This document shows, piece by piece, positions 3,001-63,766 of a stretch of DNA of 64,000 nucleotides; the first letter of the stretch is position 1; each line of letters begins with the position of its first letter. Source of the stretch: Fibrobacter sp. (GTDB lineage Bacteria; Fibrobacterota; Fibrobacteria; Fibrobacterales; Fibrobacteraceae); NCBI GenBank assembly GCA_024399035.1, contig JAKSID010000001.1:62001-126000 (forward strand), given 5' to 3'. The translations under genes were made by a program, and so were the position numbers. Under the pieces are notes generated by a model that worked only from the letters and a program-made list of their open reading frames with translations, was not told the origin of the DNA and did no database searches.

Positions 3001-5030
3001 CTCTCTGGGAATATCCAGATACTGTCTACACCAACATTCCTGAAAAGAATGTGACCTGGTTGCGTGAAGACAAGGTGTTCAGCTTTGATACCACACTGCG
3101 CGAAGGTCCCAATGTCATCAAGAGATGCTACTTGAATCATACCAAGAATTATGCAGGCTGCGATAGTGTGATTATCTACTACAGCAACGCAACTCCTGTG
3201 GTTAAGATCTATAGCGATCCTGCTGATATTTCTGCCGACAACGTTTACACCATCGTCGAAGATGTCGACAAGTCTGATACCAACTACTACGTAAATACCA
3301 CCGACAAGAAGATTACCGTTTCTGTGACGGATACTGCTGCCGGTGTCAAGAAGAAGTTTGATATCAATCTTGAACTGGATACGGTTGGTGTTCCGGAAAA
3401 GACCTTGAAGACTGTTAATGAAATCACCAAGGAAAAGGTAACCCTCCGCGACGGTAGCGACGTGGAAGTGGTTAAGACTCCGGTGAACGGCGAAAAGGTT
3501 GTTGTTTCTTACCAGGATACCGTTGAAATCAATGGCAAGCCGGTTCTCTTGACTGTATCCTACGATACCGACACCAAGGGTAACGAGACCAAGGTTGCCG
3601 TGATTAACGAAAAGGGCAAGGTTGATTCTATCCAGGTTATCACCGTCTCTTACACCACTAAGGTCAACGGCAAGGAAATGGTAATCTCCTACAAGGCCGA
3701 CGCCATTACTGGTGAAGTCCTGAACACCACCGCTGGTGGCCAGCTGACCAAGGCTGACAACAACAACGACGTGGCAACCGCCCAGGATGCTGTCGGTACC
3801 TTCTCTGTATCTTACAACTATGTGGAAAAGGGTAACTCTGTTACTGTGCACTACGTTGTGGACGAAGACGGTGACATGGTGACTAACGAAGATGGTGATA
3901 TCGGTTACTCCGTATCTTACTCCTACACGAACAAGTTCGGCAATACCGCCACCAAGTCTTTGTACATTGTTCTTGACCGAGTTGGTCCTAAGGTTGAAAT
4001 TCTTGATCCTGTGAAGGGCTCGAAGACCGAAGTGGTGACCTCCAACTTCATTAACGTTAAGTGGACTGTTAACGGGGAAGTTCAGGATACCCTGACTACC
4101 CAGGGCCTTGAAAAGGGCTTGAACGCTATTGTCCGCTTCTACCGCGATAAGGCTGGTAACGAAGCTTCTGATACCGTGTTCATCTATATGAAGAATGGCA
4201 AGAACATCGAAATCGCTATCGAACAGCCGGTAACCGAAATTACCCGTGAAAAGGTTGAAGAATACTATGCAAAGAATGAACCTGTGGAAGGTCAGACCTT
4301 TGCTGTTAGCGTTATGAACCCCACCACCGGCGAAGAAGTGGAAACCCAGAAGGGTGGCAAGGATCTCTCTAAGAAGGAATCCAAGGGTAGCGGCGATGCT
4401 CCGTATCCGGGCTTGGAAGGCCACCTTGGTCCCACTCTGGCCTTGGATATCAAGCTGCCTGTGGTACGCCAGACTAATGAAAATGCCCAGATGGATGGCT
4501 TGTCCACCGGTACTATCAGCGGTCTTGCAACCTTCGATGATATCGTTAACGCCGAAGGCCTTGTCTCCCTGGATGGCGTTGATGCCAACAATGGTGAAAA
4601 GCTTACTGTGGACGAATACGTTAAGGAATACTGCGTAGACGGATTCAATCCGGGTTCCGACCTTAGCAAGGTTAACCTGTACGATTCCAAGGCTAGCGTG
4701 AAGATTTGGGTCTATACCACTACTGGTGAATTTGTAAACTACTACAGCTTTAGCCAGAAGCTCAATGATCCGAACTACACCAACGAAGCTGGCATGTTGA
4801 GATTGTTCTTCGAAATGAAGCCTGATGAAAATGGCGACGTTCGTAACGATGCAGGCCGACTGATCGGTACGGGCTCCTACATCTACAAGGTGGAAGTCAA
4901 GCTCCGCTCCGAACTGAAGTGCTCTCTGCCGCCGGTTATGGATGCCTCTAGCCCCAAGAAGGGTGACATCATCCGCAACGATGAAGATCTGCTGAAGTCC
5001 TTCGGTTACAAGCGCCCGGCTCAGAAGTAA
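3..5030 (+). CDS. Giant cadherin-repeat surface protein (5' truncated by window edge)
   Basis: The reading frame is open from base 3, and the residues before the first Met (DSYS) already fit a cadherin strand of the type YxLxVxVTD. The true start therefore lies upstream and the protein is longer than 1671 residues. About nine cadherin-like domains of 95-110 residues follow, each closed by a calcium-linker motif such as DINET, DVNEPP or DVNEKP (roughly residues 27, 148, 246, 352, 453, 575, 679, 784 and 884). Residues from about 990 are Ig-like, beta-rich and full of VSY/TVSY strands. The last 110 residues, with KIWVYTTTGEFV and GTGSYIYKVEV, resemble the FlgD-Ig or C-terminal sorting-type domains of secreted surface proteins. 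The likely role is calcium-dependent adhesion outside the cell. Cadherin identity is firm; the partner or substrate is unknown. Confidence 0.88.
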   Translation, partial: DSYSMKVYVTDNDVDNPLQDSVPVTINVIDINETPWADAITCKIKETAAKNTAPNLNGSTTEKCVVKGQDPDIKNINFNQLTYTWADATEKGADIFAINATTGAVTLVKENVLDYDAGDRSYTLTVKIADNGGLDSTTTVLINIENVNEPPFLDDVTISIPENTETAVAIYTLVATDPEPGALDFEITSITPEEDFEVVPLGNKKGVLVVVDDLDHETKPTYTLKVKVTDAGDLSYVATVTIIVTDVNEPPYFKKKVNTFHVKEHNDADAYVGQVYGYDDDKDERYNQLTYSLVSDPSGLFAVSKDGVITVPEENVLNFESLAEDFMYQLKVKVSDGYLDATTTVYVIVDDVNEKPELKDTTFSVKEHASSGTVVGTVVATDKDKGQRLSYQLLTTSAEFTVSNEGKITTRKNLNFETKQQYTIDVLVTDDGENLPNDSNLTDTATITINIIDINEKPVVGDQSFTILETAEYPDIVGTFKNATDKDTLNDYFKDLSFFISDTIVDGVETNAAQYFTINESTGEISVKQGATFDYETKSKVYYLKLKVRDHEDPDYDDPALEAYALITINIENVPEPPTFEPKFRDYDVDENSPKGTVVGELAASDNDEDETLVYTLKNPDGSESKEFQVFYDDDKATIKVRENANLDYETNAEYKVIVIVTDKTNLEDTAYVTITINDVNEKPTMEEQYFELFENSGANYKLDGTIQSGDLDTASAFTKNFYEGVGGDTALFKVNSRGEIFANYDMDYEEYKAKNKTTFVVKVKVQDKVVDTLFVVENIYINLKNVNENPEVLTDTLYASEDALAGTEIGLLDADDPDGPTTFTYTLIRASKQFNVDPDGIVTVKTDNILDYETKDHAYTIYVNVQDADGGVSDTKPVVIIVSDVNEPPVLNDTILYVREDASVDTIFAKIFGHDPDIYTEAFNQLSYEMLSPKDTFDILPDGSVKLLRRLDYEADSLYERVVRVTDGTFFDTANVIIKVVDVIESTVVEIVKVEDPDSLWEYPDTVYTNIPEKNVTWLREDKVFSFDTTLREGPNVIKRCYLNHTKNYAGCDSVIIYYSNATPVVKIYSDPADISADNVYTIVEDVDKSDTNYYVNTTDKKITVSVTDTAAGVKKKFDINLELDTVGVPEKTLKTVNEITKEKVTLRDGSDVEVVKTPVNGEKVVVSYQDTVEINGKPVLLTVSYDTDTKGNETKVAVINEKGKVDSIQVITVSYTTKVNGKEMVISYKADAITGEVLNTTAGGQLTKADNNNDVATAQDAVGTFSVSYNYVEKGNSVTVHYVVDEDGDMVTNEDGDIGYSVSYSYTNKFGNTATKSLYIVLDRVGPKVEILDPVKGSKTEVVTSNFINVKWTVNGEVQDTLTTQGLEKGLNAIVRFYRDKAGNEASDTVFIYMKNGKNIEIAIEQPVTEITREKVEEYYAKNEPVEGQTFAVSVMNPTTGEEVETQKGGKDLSKKESKGSGDAPYPGLEGHLGPTLALDIKLPVVRQTNENAQMDGLSTGTISGLATFDDIVNAEGLVSLDGVDANNGEKLTVDEYVKEYCVDGFNPGSDLSKVNLYDSKASVKIWVYTTTGEFVNYYSFSQKLNDPNYTNEAGMLRLFFEMKPDENGDVRNDAGRLIGTGSYIYKVEVKLRSELKCSLPPVMDASSPKKGDIIRNDEDLLKSFGYKRPAQK

Positions 5031-58510: not shown

Positions 58511-60094
58511 ATGAAAACTCAGATTTTAAAGCCCATTTTGGGCCTGATTTTGGCCGCATTCCTAGGCGTTCCGGTCTTGGCCGCATCTCCTGTTTTGGCT
58601 CCCGAAAATGTCCGTAACTTGCGTCTGCTCGAAACGTCTCCCATGCTTTTTGAAATGCATCGGTTGACTACTGGTGACGGCAAGCAGTATTTCGCCTATC
58701 CTCGTCGCGATACCGCATTCAGAAAAAATTTCCTGCAAACAGAGAACAATTCTCTGCTGGGTTACGACAATGTGTACGGCGGATACGTGAATGGTCGCCT
58801 AGCTGATACATTGACTGCTCAGCCAAAGATTGCGCTGGCTGTTTCCCTGGTGGGGGGGATGGATTACCGCGGTGGTGAAAAGTTCTATCGAGGCGAAGAA
58901 AAGTACTATCGCGGAAATCAGTCTATTGCAGACACTATCTGGCCTAGCATCGACGGTGGCCTTTACATCCGTGGCTTTGCGGATTCCGTGGACTTTGTGC
59001 TGGATGCCCGAATATACAACGAAGGCCATTCCGCTAAAAATCCTAGGTCCTTTGACGGTGAATTCCTGGAAATCCAGAGAGCAGAAAACAATTCCGGCAT
59101 TGAATATACCAGCTTTGCCCGCTACCGTACCCATTTTGCCATTAACTACGACTGGGCCCGACTGGACTTTGGCCGCGACGTCATGCACTGGGGCCCGGGT
59201 TACTACAACAACCTGACCTTGAATCAGTTTTCCTTGCCCTACAACATGTTGTCCTTGGATTTGACTTTTGGTCCGCTGCATGTGCTTTCGTTCTATGGTG
59301 ACTTGCGTATCGATGCAAACAGCATGAGTTACAAGAACAAAATGGAACGTAACTTGTTCGGCCATCGTTATGAACTTGCCCTGGGAAATGCCACTTTTGG
59401 TGTGAGCGAATTACAGGTGCTGTATGATGATCTTAAAACTTGGTTGTTTGTGCCCACTGCGGTCCTGTTCATGGAAAAGGGAAACTTCTACGAGAACAGC
59501 AATAATGGATCTCTTTCCTTTGATTTCAACTATCGTCTTTTCAAGACAATCCGTCTCTATACGGAATTTTTCCTGGATGATATGGAAAGCCCCGTCAGCT
59601 TGATCAGAAACGATAATATTGAAGCCAAGTGGGCTTGGATGGCTGGCTTGCAGGCAGCCCACGATTTTGAAATCAAGGGCCATTTGATTGAGGCGGGTAC
59701 TATTGCTGAATTTGCCCGCGTTGAACCTTACGTGTATTCCCATTTCCATCCGAGTACAGCCCAGCTTGCTCATCTAGGACGTCCGCTGGGTAACCAGAGC
59801 GGTCCTAATAGCCGCACCATTGACTGGACAATTTACGGCCGCCTGGACAAGCATATTTTTGCGTCTCTTCGCAATACCTGGCTTTGGAAGGGTAGGGACT
59901 ACGGTAGCTTTGTAAACGATACAACTCCTACTGGCAACCACATGAAGTTGGGCAAGGAATTCCTGAAGGATGCAAAGCTGGAATACTCCCTGACGCCTTC
60001 TGTTAGCTACGAAGGCCAGTATGTCAGTTACATGGGCGAGGTGACTCTCTTTGACGACAAGAAGGTCTACGTACGCGCCGGTTTCAAGTGGTAA
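58511..60094 (+). CDS. Wzi-like outer-membrane beta-barrel protein
   Basis: A 527-residue protein with signal peptide MKTQILKPILGLILAAFLGV, cleaved after VLA. The mature chain has barrel strands (FVLDARIYNEGHS, INYDWARLDFGRDVMHWGPG, LSFDFNYRLFKTIRLYTEFF) and the segment VYSHFHPSTAQLAHLGRPLG with GPNSRTIDW, which resembles the conserved part of the capsule-assembly protein Wzi. Wzi anchors capsule polysaccharide at the cell surface; here a similar polysaccharide role is inferred. There is no clear Shine-Dalgarno sequence before the ATG, and no capsule genes are adjacent. Confidence 0.75.
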   Translation: MKTQILKPILGLILAAFLGVPVLAASPVLAPENVRNLRLLETSPMLFEMHRLTTGDGKQYFAYPRRDTAFRKNFLQTENNSLLGYDNVYGGYVNGRLADTLTAQPKIALAVSLVGGMDYRGGEKFYRGEEKYYRGNQSIADTIWPSIDGGLYIRGFADSVDFVLDARIYNEGHSAKNPRSFDGEFLEIQRAENNSGIEYTSFARYRTHFAINYDWARLDFGRDVMHWGPGYYNNLTLNQFSLPYNMLSLDLTFGPLHVLSFYGDLRIDANSMSYKNKMERNLFGHRYELALGNATFGVSELQVLYDDLKTWLFVPTAVLFMEKGNFYENSNNGSLSFDFNYRLFKTIRLYTEFFLDDMESPVSLIRNDNIEAKWAWMAGLQAAHDFEIKGHLIEAGTIAEFARVEPYVYSHFHPSTAQLAHLGRPLGNQSGPNSRTIDWTIYGRLDKHIFASLRNTWLWKGRDYGSFVNDTTPTGNHMKLGKEFLKDAKLEYSLTPSVSYEGQYVSYMGEVTLFDDKKVYVRAGFKW

Positions 60095-60102
60095 CTAGGA
60101 AA

Positions 60103-60144
60103 CCTTGTTCCTCGAACCTCAAACCTCGAACCTCGAGCCTAATT
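60103..60144. repeat. Heptad-repeat array ending exactly at the trhP start codon
   Basis: Six heptads in perfect register: CCTTGTT (60103), CCTCGAA (60110), CCTCAAA (60117), CCTCGAA (60124), CCTCGAG (60131), CCTAATT (60138). The ATG follows at 60145 with no spare base. They fill almost the whole 50-base gap after the Wzi-like gene. Confidence 0.85.
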
Positions 60145-61458
60145 ATGTACAAACCTGAACTTCTCGCTCCCGCTGGTGATTTGACTCGAATGAAGTATGC
60201 CTTTGCGTACGGTGCCGATGCCGTATACGCAGGTCAGCCGGCTTTCTCTCTTCGTGCCCGTGAAAACGGTTTCAAGAATCTTGACGACTTGGCCGAGGGT
60301 ATCGCCTATGCCCACAAGTTGGGCAAAAAGTTCTATCTCACCAGTAACGTGATCGCCCGCAATACAAAGGTGGAGGCTTTCCAGAAGGCCTTGCTTGAAG
60401 CTATTGATTTGGGCCCCGATGCGCTGATTGTGGCTGACGCCGGTGTAATCGGCTGGCTCCGTCAGGTGCGCCCCAATGTAGAAGTTCACGTTTCCGTTCA
60501 GGCAAACACTACGAACTTCTTGACTGCAAAGTTCTGGCACGACCTGGGCTGCACCCGCGTCATTCTCAGCCGCGAACTGCGTTTGCCCGAAGTGCTTGAA
60601 ATCAAGGAACGCAACCCGGGCCTGGAATTGGAAGTCTTTGTACACGGTGCCGTTTGCATGTCCATGTCCGGACGCTGCATGCTGTCTAACTGGGTAACCC
60701 ACCGCGACGCCAACCAGGGCGCTTGCGACAATTCCTGCCGTATGCCTTACCGCCTGTATGCCAACGAAGGTCCCCAGGTTGAAGACTACAAGGAACACGA
60801 GGGCAATTTCACCCTGCAGCGAACCGACCGCCCGGAACTGGACCCCATTGCTCTCGACGAAGACACTTGGGGTACTTACTTCATGAGTAGCCGCGACCTC
60901 TGTGCCTTGGAAGTGGTGCCCGAATTGCTTAAGGCCCAGCTGGAATCCTTCAAGATCGAAGGCCGCACCAAGTCTGTGTACTACTTGAGCCAGGTGGTTC
61001 ATACCTACCGTATGGCCTTGGACGCCTGCATGGCCCAGGCTGCCGCAGGTCAGGAAATGGTAATTCCCGAGGAATGCCGCCGTTCCCTTTCCTTCCTGGA
61101 CGGTCGCGGATTCATGTCGGGCTTTATGAAGGGCCCTCTGCCTCAGAATTACGAATCTACCCATACAGCAGCCCCCGGCGGTTGCGTTGCCGCCCAGATT
61201 CTGGACTACGACGAAGCTACCCATTCCTGCCGCGTCAACGTAAAGAATCCCTTTACCATGGACGACGAACTGGAGCTGATGATGCCCGAGGGAATGACCC
61301 CGTGCGACGTGGTTTCCATGAACGATTTCCGCGGTGGAGCGGTGGATCGACTGAACCCGGGTACCGAGGGCCGAGTGTTTTTGGATAAAAATGTTACGCT
61401 GAACACACAAAGTGCTTCTTTTGGTTTTTTTGTACGTAAAAATCCCCAAAATTCCTAG
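60145..61458 (+). CDS. trhP: U32-family tRNA hydroxylation protein (TrhP/YegQ-like)
   Basis: A 437-residue protein. The N-terminus MYKPELLAPAGDLTRMKYAF and YGADAVYAGQPAFSLRAREN, then ELEVFVHGAVCMSMSGRCML (cysteines for iron-sulfur binding) and NQGACDNSCRMPYRL, are those of the U32 peptidase family, YegQ branch. FKIEGRTKSVYYLSQVVHTYR also matches. E. coli YegQ (TrhP) takes part in prephenate-dependent 5-hydroxyuridine formation at tRNA position 34. An open frame continues upstream, but the family start is the ATG at 60145, directly after a heptad-repeat array that leaves no ribosome-binding site. Confidence 0.9.
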   Translation: MYKPELLAPAGDLTRMKYAFAYGADAVYAGQPAFSLRARENGFKNLDDLAEGIAYAHKLGKKFYLTSNVIARNTKVEAFQKALLEAIDLGPDALIVADAGVIGWLRQVRPNVEVHVSVQANTTNFLTAKFWHDLGCTRVILSRELRLPEVLEIKERNPGLELEVFVHGAVCMSMSGRCMLSNWVTHRDANQGACDNSCRMPYRLYANEGPQVEDYKEHEGNFTLQRTDRPELDPIALDEDTWGTYFMSSRDLCALEVVPELLKAQLESFKIEGRTKSVYYLSQVVHTYRMALDACMAQAAAGQEMVIPEECRRSLSFLDGRGFMSGFMKGPLPQNYESTHTAAPGGCVAAQILDYDEATHSCRVNVKNPFTMDDELELMMPEGMTPCDVVSMNDFRGGAVDRLNPGTEGRVFLDKNVTLNTQSASFGFFVRKNPQNS

Positions 61459-61478
61459 TTTTTACGTAAATTTGGTGC

Positions 61479-61922
61479 ATGGCTGTCGACGAAGCGACTA
61501 AAAAACAAAACGAACTGGAACTTTTTCAGATTGATGAGGAATCCATCATTCCGTTCTTTGAGAGTCATCTCGAAGAGCTGAAGGTCTTTGTCACCGAAAA
61601 AAAATCCCAGAACCTTAGTTTGCTTGAGGTTCTCAAGCAGTTTATTCGCTCCTATAAGTTGCCTTTCAATATGCAGCGCTATATGGCGGTTCAGTCCACC
61701 TATATCCGCCAGAGCCTTCAAGAAAAGATGCAGGATCGCCAGATGGCTGTTAGCCGCTGGATCCAGGAAAACGCCAGTCGTCACCGTAACCGCATGATTC
61801 AGCTCCAGTGCCTGTACCTGGACCGCATCAAGGAACGTCTCCTCCCCGAAATAGAGAAAATGCTTGAGCGAAAACAGGGTGAGCTTCTTGAAAAACTCCA
61901 GGAAAAACAGACTAAGCTCTAA
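61479..61922 (+). CDS. Hypothetical helical/coiled-coil protein
   Basis: A 147-residue soluble protein of unknown function. It is almost wholly helical: residues 25-60 (ESHLEELKVFVTEKKSQNLS), 65-115 (MQRYMAVQSTYIRQSLQEKM) and a coiled coil at 115-147 (ERLLPEIEKMLERKQGELLE). No signal peptide or membrane segment. It follows trhP by 20 bases, probably on the same transcript, and a terminator lies downstream. Confidence 0.6.
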   Translation: MAVDEATKKQNELELFQIDEESIIPFFESHLEELKVFVTEKKSQNLSLLEVLKQFIRSYKLPFNMQRYMAVQSTYIRQSLQEKMQDRQMAVSRWIQENASRHRNRMIQLQCLYLDRIKERLLPEIEKMLERKQGELLEKLQEKQTKL

Positions 61923-62284
61923 CTGGTTGATTAACAACGACTTATATCAAAAAATGCCTAAAATCGCCTAAAAATGGCGATTTTTCTTTTTATGTATGTT
62001 TTTTGAAAGTTTTTTGTCTCCCGAAAAATAAAAGAAATCTTGTCAACCCATAGTTCAAAATTTTTCCGTTGATAAGTTGTGAAATTCATAGGGATGCTTG
62101 TTTGATTCTACCGTTATTAAATGCGTGAGTAACTGTATAGTTAGGGACGAAAACCGTTGATGAAAATAATTGTGCCGATTTTGGCTTAAAAACCCCGTTT
62201 TACAAGTTTTTTTCAAAAATTCGGGCCTCTTTTGGGGGGCTTTACTTAACTTTTGCTTGTCTTTTTTCTCATTTTTTTGCTTGG
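61923..62284. other. Intergenic region upstream of dnaA, putative origin
   Basis: These 362 bases hold no gene. After the terminator the region is very A/T-rich (61981-62040). No consensus TTATCCACA box was found on either strand. Instead three close variants of CCGTTRWTRA occur: CCGTTGATAA (62066-62075), CCGTTATTAA (62111-62120), CCGTTGATGA (62154-62163). A related TTAACAACGA lies on the other strand at 61931-61940. Start-to-start spacings of the three are 45 and 43 bases. Position before dnaA makes an origin plausible. Confidence 0.45.
61960..61990 (+). terminator. Terminator after the coiled-coil gene
   Basis: A 9-bp stem AAAATCGCC (61960-61968) / GGCGATTTT (61976-61984), 7-base loop, then TTCTTTTT. 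Confidence 0.8.
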
Positions 62285-63766
62285 GTGTCTGTGTCCAACA
62301 CTGTTTCTATATTGAATGTCGTTGCTTCACCGTGGGAGTCGGTGTTGAATCTGGTTCGTACTGAATGTAACGACTACTTAGGCGTGGCTATGCTTGAAAC
62401 CGTAGGTTTCGAAGGCATTTGCGATGGCTATGTTACTCTTTCTGTTCCTGATGAATTGCGCCAGAATTGGGTGAATGTCCATTACGGCGCTATTTTGCGC
62501 AAGTCTTTTTCTGCTGTTTTTGGCTCTGAATTCAAGGATTATCGAATCCGCCAGGTAGCGCCCTCCGGCTCTGTGCCCGAGGTCAAGTTCTCTACCCCCG
62601 CGGCTCCGGTATTGCCGCCCATTGCTCGTACCAAGCCTAAGGCAAGGGCCGCTGCAAAGCCCCGTCTCAAGCTGTATGCCGGCTACACCTTCGACAAGTT
62701 CATTGAAGGCTCCTGCAATTCTACTGCGTTCAAGGCTTGCAAGGCTGTATCCGAAAATCCCGGCGATCCGGCCTTGAATCCGCTTTTTGTCTATGGCAAG
62801 TCCGGTTTGGGCAAGACTCATTTACTCCAGTCCATTGCCGCAAGCATGCAAAAGTCCAAGCCCCAGGCAAACATTGTGTACTGCCACGCTTTCGACTTCC
62901 TTCGCGACGCTACCGCTGTTGCCAAGGCCCTTAAGCTTAAAACCGGCAATGTTCGTGAATTGGCCCAGGCTTTCCAGGACAAGTACGAGAACTGCGATAT
63001 CCTTTTGCTGGACGATGTTCAACTTATCGAAAAGGGTATCACCACCCAGGAACGCCTGGCTATCTTGATTCGTCATCTGCGCAGCCAGGGCAAGCAGGTT
63101 GTGATTTCTTGCGACCGTCACCCCTCCAAGTTCAATCGTGCGGTTGACGAAGCCGACTTTAAGGCTAAGGCAAGTGCCGGTGTTCCCTGCATTTCTTCTA
63201 AGTTGCTGGCTCCCTTGGATTCCTGTGTTGCCGTTGGTCTGGACGAACCGGATCTCAATACAAGAATGCGCTTGATCCAGCAGAAGTCTATCGACATTCC
63301 TTTTGTGGATCGTGACCGCGAAGAAATTTACCGTTTCCTCTCTATTCCGCCCCGTCAGAACTTCCGTGTACTCGAAGGCCTTTTGGTGACCCTTGGTGCA
63401 ATGAACGATCTTTGCCAGCAGAATCTGGACTTGCAGACCGTTAAGCGCCTATTGAGCACCAACGAATCTTCTACCATTGGCGAGGTTACTCCCAAGAGTA
63501 TTTCCGAAGTTGTGGCTGCGGAATTTGGTGTGGACATGGTTGTTTTGGCAAGCAAGCGTCAGGACCTCAAGGCATCTCTCCCGCGCAAGGTGGCTATGTA
63601 CCTTTGCCGCGAGATGACTACTGAGTCCCTGTCCAATGTGGGTGCTATGTTTAATCGCGACTATGCCACTGTTATCGCCGCCATCCAGTCTCTTAAAAAG
63701 CAAATGGATAAGGATGCAAACCTTATGCAAAAGGTCCAAGATATCCAATATTTGCTGGAAGCCTAG
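62285..63766 (+). CDS. dnaA: Divergent chromosomal replication initiator DnaA
   Basis: A 493-residue protein with all four DnaA domains. Domain I (residues 15-90) has PWESVLNLV and LSVPDELRQNW; domain II is a Pro/Ala/Lys linker; domain III (about 125-355) has Walker A YGKSGLGKTHLLQ, Walker B ILLLDDVQLI, sensor I VVISCDRHPSKF and sensor II FRVLEGLLV. Domain IV (about 385-493) ends the chain. Two core features are altered: the arginine-finger segment (usually LxSRF) reads LLAPLD, and the DNA-binding signature (usually GGRDHTTV) reads NRDYATV. The start is taken at the GTG at 62285; GTG at 62291 is equally possible and no strong ribosome-binding site is seen. Confidence 0.9.
   Translation: MSVSNTVSILNVVASPWESVLNLVRTECNDYLGVAMLETVGFEGICDGYVTLSVPDELRQNWVNVHYGAILRKSFSAVFGSEFKDYRIRQVAPSGSVPEVKFSTPAAPVLPPIARTKPKARAAAKPRLKLYAGYTFDKFIEGSCNSTAFKACKAVSENPGDPALNPLFVYGKSGLGKTHLLQSIAASMQKSKPQANIVYCHAFDFLRDATAVAKALKLKTGNVRELAQAFQDKYENCDILLLDDVQLIEKGITTQERLAILIRHLRSQGKQVVISCDRHPSKFNRAVDEADFKAKASAGVPCISSKLLAPLDSCVAVGLDEPDLNTRMRLIQQKSIDIPFVDRDREEIYRFLSIPPRQNFRVLEGLLVTLGAMNDLCQQNLDLQTVKRLLSTNESSTIGEVTPKSISEVVAAEFGVDMVVLASKRQDLKASLPRKVAMYLCREMTTESLSNVGAMFNRDYATVIAAIQSLKKQMDKDANLMQKVQDIQYLLEA

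Follow-up and report, generated by a model that had tools for sequence, protein, structure and literature searches.

Hda, the DnaA regulatory inactivator, is a AAA+ protein derived from DnaA which is not itself an initiator and is thought to act through an arginine finger. In chlamydiae, two dnaA genes are found on one chromosome. Two dnaA genes per chromosome are already known from other bacteria as well (PMC4403523), e.g., from Acidaminococcus fermentans, in which both genes lie together in an rpmH-dnaA-dnaA-dnaN cluster (PMC4403523). ATP-DnaA assembles head to tail on phased boxes of the same strand; the residues R285, R281, R227, L290, and K243 are reported to be needed in the domain III-III interaction, and R399 for a minor-groove contact (PMC5742627). 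Arginine-finger mutants of several DnaAs keep nucleotide binding and lose DNA opening, and the mutant of T. maritima DnaA also keeps the binding of a single box (PMC10316083; PMC8287927). A literature search, with most subscription papers outside its scope, found no study of replication control in Fibrobacter and no description of a second DnaA in Fibrobacterota.

The window analyzed here is a stretch of 64,000 nucleotides from a Fibrobacter genome (G000), which is of 2.94 Mb in 95 contigs, is 88% complete, and encodes exactly two proteins over the Bac_DnaA cut-off. We refer to the canonical gene as copy A and to the gene in the window as copy B; the features of both are collected in Table 1. 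Copy B is a full-length DnaA-family protein (Pfam: Bac_DnaA 3.2e-39, Bac_DnaA_C 5.7e-19, DnaA_N 8.1e-6), which exceeds the Pfam cut-offs for the family in all three domains (135.2 vs 23, 68.4 vs 31.5, and 25.9 vs 24.6 bits, respectively). It falls under the curated cut-off of the DnaA equivalog TIGR00362 (299.8 vs 343.9 bits), does not match the Hda equivalog (60.6 bits vs a cut-off of 194.8), and possesses domain IV. The GTG at 62291, kept in the alignment of relatives, is the likely true start, and this conservation suggests that translation of copy B begins there. W6 of domain I is present in all copy B sequences of the alignment, and the domain, being retained, could contact replication partners. 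In the AF2 model (mean pLDDT 86.5), the AAA+ fold and domain IV are retained; over 331 residues, the model aligns with the DnaA structure 8btg_C at 4.1 A (Z 30.6), and domain IV of the model superposes on the E. coli DnaA-box complex 1j1v at 0.9 A over 93 residues. Just upstream of dnaA-B (window positions 60088-61922), there is a gene for a U32-family protein (TrhP/YegQ-like) and a short gene, a neighborhood that is retained in a nearby genus (g5) and not phylum-wide.

Table 1. Features of the dnaA pair (window coordinates, except where a contig is given)
Feature	Position	Strand	Basis or remark
dnaA paralog (copy B), 493 aa	62285..63766	+	ORF; family searches
DnaA domain I, weak match, W6 kept	62330..62512	+	Pfam DnaA_N, residues 16-76
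Walker A GKSGLGKT, kept	62795..62818	+	alignment
Walker B ILLLDD, kept	62999..63016	+	alignment
Insertion of ~17 aa after sensor I and before box VII, in genus B copies	63131..63181	+	without invariant Arg
Pro310 codon, arginine-finger position (E. coli R285)	63212..63214	+	alignment
Sensor II Arg361 (E. coli R334), kept	63365..63367	+	alignment
Domain IV helix-turn-helix DNA-binding domain	63494..63757	+	Pfam; alignment; AF2 model vs 1j1v
TTGTCAACC, DnaA-box-like half of conserved promoter block	62040..62048	+	
TTATCAACG, DnaA box in conserved block	62067..62075	-	aligned in 15/15 genus members compared; TTATCAACA in several
Copy A, canonical dnaA, 443 aa	G000:C45:86968-88296		family search and alignment

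To call residues, we aligned some 105 relatives and the E. coli protein (NC_000913 b3702) to copy B. An earlier note on this DNA had read from the translation that four base-contacting residues are replaced, that the GGRDHTTV signature is one residue shorter, that the box VII arginine has given way to proline, and that Walker A, Walker B, and sensor II are kept. All of this is borne out by the alignment: domain IV carries Q426 for R399, K435 for Q408, Y460 for H434, and A461 for T435, the signature is shortened by one residue, R285 is P within LLAPLD, and both Walker motifs and R334 of sensor II are retained. We regard these residue assignments as near certain. As the neighboring arginine (E. 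coli R398, window R425) is kept in copy B, the R399 equivalence could move by one residue, depending on where the gap of the domain III-IV linker is placed. Among the other domain IV contacts, copy B retains R407 and T436 (E. coli numbering); T435->S occurs in canonical A copies too, and T. maritima DnaA likewise has FNRSH at the place of GGRDH. Beyond these, we found R281->K, R227->E, L290->V, V211->T, and K243->G in copy B, all of which fall at reported interface or single-strand contacts. The earlier note had considered that an arginine finger might lie elsewhere nearby; we looked for a replacement in the loop and the insertion near box VII of copy B and rejected this candidate, since no arginine is conserved there. 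From the residues, it is well supported that the copy B protein itself would depart from the textbook model both in how it reads boxes and in its ATP switch between subunits, as had been proposed.

Comparison across 50 species of the genus indicates that these changes are not due to chance, because position 285 of copy B is never Arg (P in 35, H in 9, Q in 3, and N, Y, and S in one each) and Q399, K408, and V290 are invariant. Position 434 is Y in 49 of the 50 species, position 243 is always G, A, or S, and R is never seen at position 281 or at position 227 (K once). In the 30 A copies, R285, R281, K243, and L290 are all intact, and position 227 is R or K. A drifting finger position beside fixed DNA-contact residues suggests that selection in copy B holds DNA binding rather than filament formation. 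Outside the genus, the finger is absent in the single lineages L107b, L112, and L122, the region is gapped in L088 and L108, and the finger is retained in most B copies, so that a role without filaments may be confined to certain branches. The dN/dS of copy B, ranging from 0.05 to 0.13, shows that the gene is under purifying selection. Its nonsynonymous rate is about 1.5-8 times faster than that of copy A, as would be expected of a redundant copy in decay, but the low dN/dS and the retention of the gene over the phylum make such decay scarcely credible.

Copy A of the window's genome has RLVSRF and GGKDHSTVVHAI, with R399, Q408, H434, and GGKDHSTVV; its arginine finger and box-reading residues are intact. 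The implication of the earlier note that the initiator of this organism departs from the textbook model does not hold, as a fully canonical second DnaA is encoded elsewhere in the genome; in our preferred reading copy A is the initiator, and copy B is not the sole replication starter of the bacterium. Matches were found in 164 of the 167 genomes of the phylum that were searched, and two or more DnaA genes are present in 86 of the 89 high-quality Fibrobacterota genomes (the exceptions being G143, G022, and G036). Contigs named as Chitinispirillum and Fibrobacteres also hold B copies. In a quick tree of 90 proteins, A is separate from B, and L011, the window copy, falls within clade B. A more careful tree of 53 proteins, with outgroups from other phyla, recovers clades A and B with 100/99 support each, inside which the branching follows families. 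A single A+B clade is not rejected (AU p 0.176), so the duplication could date to the root of the phylum or a little earlier. H434Y occurs in nearly all B copies (L099, L130, L140, and L323 have H and L112 has F) and in 0 of the 75 readable DnaAs of other phyla; both the tree grouping and Y434 assign copy B to the Fibrobacterota B clade. Acquisition of copy B from another phylum was considered and rejected, as the best 80 loci of a scan of the genome collection comprised two B copies from Fibrobacterota, the rest being DnaAs of the H434 type. It is near certain that copy B is an ancient DnaA paralog and that the pair has been inherited throughout Fibrobacterota. One further locus, L147 (G020:C198, a contig of 4.6 kb), carries dnaA-dnaN on a long branch outside the A and B clades and is possibly a contaminant.

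In the other classes of the phylum, copy A is flanked in most families checked by rnpA and yidC on one side and dnaN on the other, the GC skew passes from negative to positive across it, and boxes lie in the dnaA-dnaN spacer. Copy B loci lie away from rnpA, yidC, and dnaN and show no skew turn where checked; that copy B is the origin-linked copy was rejected on these grounds. In Fibrobacteraceae, neither A nor B lies at the inferred oriC. The earlier note had set against its own reading a second canonical dnaA located at the origin: the canonical copy does exist, but it occupies the origin locus in other classes of the phylum, unlike in Fibrobacteraceae. The complete genome G144 has its skew turn at ~1.42 Mb, where a parS cluster (1,416-1,420 kb) is followed by a box cluster (~1.423 Mb), with copy A at 0.79 Mb and copy B at 2.39 Mb. 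The matching element in the window's genome has six boxes in 220 bp round a perfect parS on contig C74 (~3386-3605; L253). Candidate origins of the genus and its relatives (L253; L301 16133-16416, i.e., G144:C1 at about 1.423 Mb; L292, L293, L297-L300, and L303) mostly hold 6-9 DnaA boxes (TTATCMACA-like) spread over a few hundred bases that enclose or lie close to parS TGTTTCACGTGAAACA, and they are situated at the GC-skew turn wherever this could be checked. The dnaN gene of Fibrobacteraceae lies apart from both dnaA genes (G000:C78:26032; G144:C1:1348070), unlike in the other classes.

The view of the earlier note, if moved to the paralog, would make copy B a second, conditional initiator with a different switch. 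The ATP site and each of the three Pfam domains have been retained, which speaks for this; however, the arginine finger and other interface residues are gone, finger mutants cannot open DNA (PMC8287927), and the B locus is away from the GC-skew switch where checked. We consider this highly improbable.

In most families, DnaA boxes are present in the promoter of copy B. In 16 genomes outside class Fibrobacteria, a total of 50 TT[AG]TC[AC]ACA boxes precede B, and every one of them is on the opposite strand from the gene. The boxes form two groups ~200 bp apart and are phased by ~11 bp, the favored spacings being 11, 22, 14, 36, 47, and 33 bp. Counted by family outside Fibrobacteraceae, B promoters have at least one box in 10 of 12 families and two or more in 8 of 12, and none of the 3501 random windows from the same loci held two boxes. 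The promoters of A outside the genus have no exact box. Within the genus, 14 B promoters have 6 exact boxes, with TTATCAACG in the others, and 14 A promoters have 16; in the window, what is left of the B array is one box on the minus strand and a weak one on the plus strand. As phased boxes on the same strand suit the head-to-tail assembly of ATP-DnaA, the expression of B is probably under the control of DnaA (A, B, or both). In the window's genus, the ~200 bp before dnaA-A (L041-L070) contain a conserved inverted box pair, TTATCAACA ... TGTTGATAG, which has no counterpart in other genera, indicating that the wiring of A has changed in this genus. Base 6 of the box (A or C) stands at 38:12 in B promoters vs 6:8 in origin spacers (Fisher p 0.025, the rows being related), which is a hint that this base may sort A-sites from B-sites.

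Exact matches to the promoter 14-mer in the window's genome are limited to B's own promoter and one site on contig C18, GTTGATAAGTTGTG (L252:9227-9240; G000:C18:24227), which precedes a gene for a secreted TPR-like protein and is a possible target. A regulon defined from the 14-mer was rejected, as matches with up to 2 mismatches were at the level of a reversed-pattern control. Conceivably, copy B serves purely as a transcription factor, acting on targets of its own and taking no part in the control of replication; the fixed new residues in domain IV and the exact C18 match before a gene agree with this, but the same control makes the extra site weak, and the boxes in the B promoter of most families tie B to the initiator. 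We think this explanation decidedly unlikely.

The strongest rival, ahead of the plain transcription factor and the second initiator, is a capping subunit that poisons the filaments of A. On this view, copy B would join A in assemblies at oriC or at other box arrays and act there as a dominant-negative subunit that terminates the chain: an ATP site without a finger would engage a neighbor on one side only, cap the filament, and limit initiation. The retention of the ATP site with loss of the finger fits this, the activity of A could turn B on or off through the phased same-strand boxes of the B promoter, and oriC of the genus carries both TTATCCACA-type and TTATCAACA-type boxes. Nevertheless, R227, R281, K243, and L290 are lost too, and the contact with A may be lost wholly; the DNA-reading residues of B also differ from those of A, which argues against the sharing of all sites. 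We hold capping to be possible, though tentatively so.

The reading we prefer, and consider somewhat probable, is that copy B derives from DnaA, binds DNA without forming filaments, and serves as a regulator within a feedback loop on initiation; this role is much less sure than the paralogy and the residue changes. The protein is predicted to fold as DnaA, to bind ATP through the retained Walker A and B motifs and sensors, and to bind DNA through domain IV with altered contacts. By analogy with the finger mutants, it should bind ATP and DNA and not open DNA, as B of the genus has lost the AAA+ interface residues for an ATP-dependent DNA-melting filament. It would most likely act as a DNA-bound regulator rather than as an initiator, its level probably tracking the activity of DnaA (of A, or of A plus B) through the boxes of its own promoter, and it may sit in a feedback loop either on initiation or on DnaA-box promoters. 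Against this reading stand the finger retained by B in most other lineages, the reduced box array of the window, and domain I, whose retention could point to contact with replication partners. A bolder reading, which we rate as somewhat unlikely, is that the phylum has a built-in initiation antagonist, i.e., a DnaA paralog which is devoid of the finger in the window's genus and has a DnaA assembly array for its own promoter; the activity of the initiator would then set the level of a subunit that stops further filament growth or re-initiation.

If the preferred regulator reading is true, copy B represents a natural separation of DnaA activities, in which DNA and ATP binding are kept and filament formation is lost, fixed in a genus within a pair retained over the phylum and accompanied by a control element from which a feedback circuit can be predicted. 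The analysis also supplies a candidate oriC and a box sequence for Fibrobacter, and it emphasizes caution with 'dnaA' annotations in Fibrobacterota, which cover two different proteins. Compared with the known systems, copy B shares with DnaA (TIGR00362/Bac_DnaA) the domain layout and the structural alignment to 8btg_C and 1j1v, and differs in its low equivalog score, in the changed finger, interface, and box-contact residues, in its off-origin locus, and in being a paralog of a canonical copy. Both copy B and Hda are DnaA-derived AAA+ proteins; however, Hda is without domain IV, whereas copy B keeps domain IV and has no arginine finger. As in A. fermentans, two dnaA genes are present on one chromosome, but the Fibrobacterota pair is phylum-wide, its B copy lies away from dnaN, and B of the window's genus is devoid of the interface residues.
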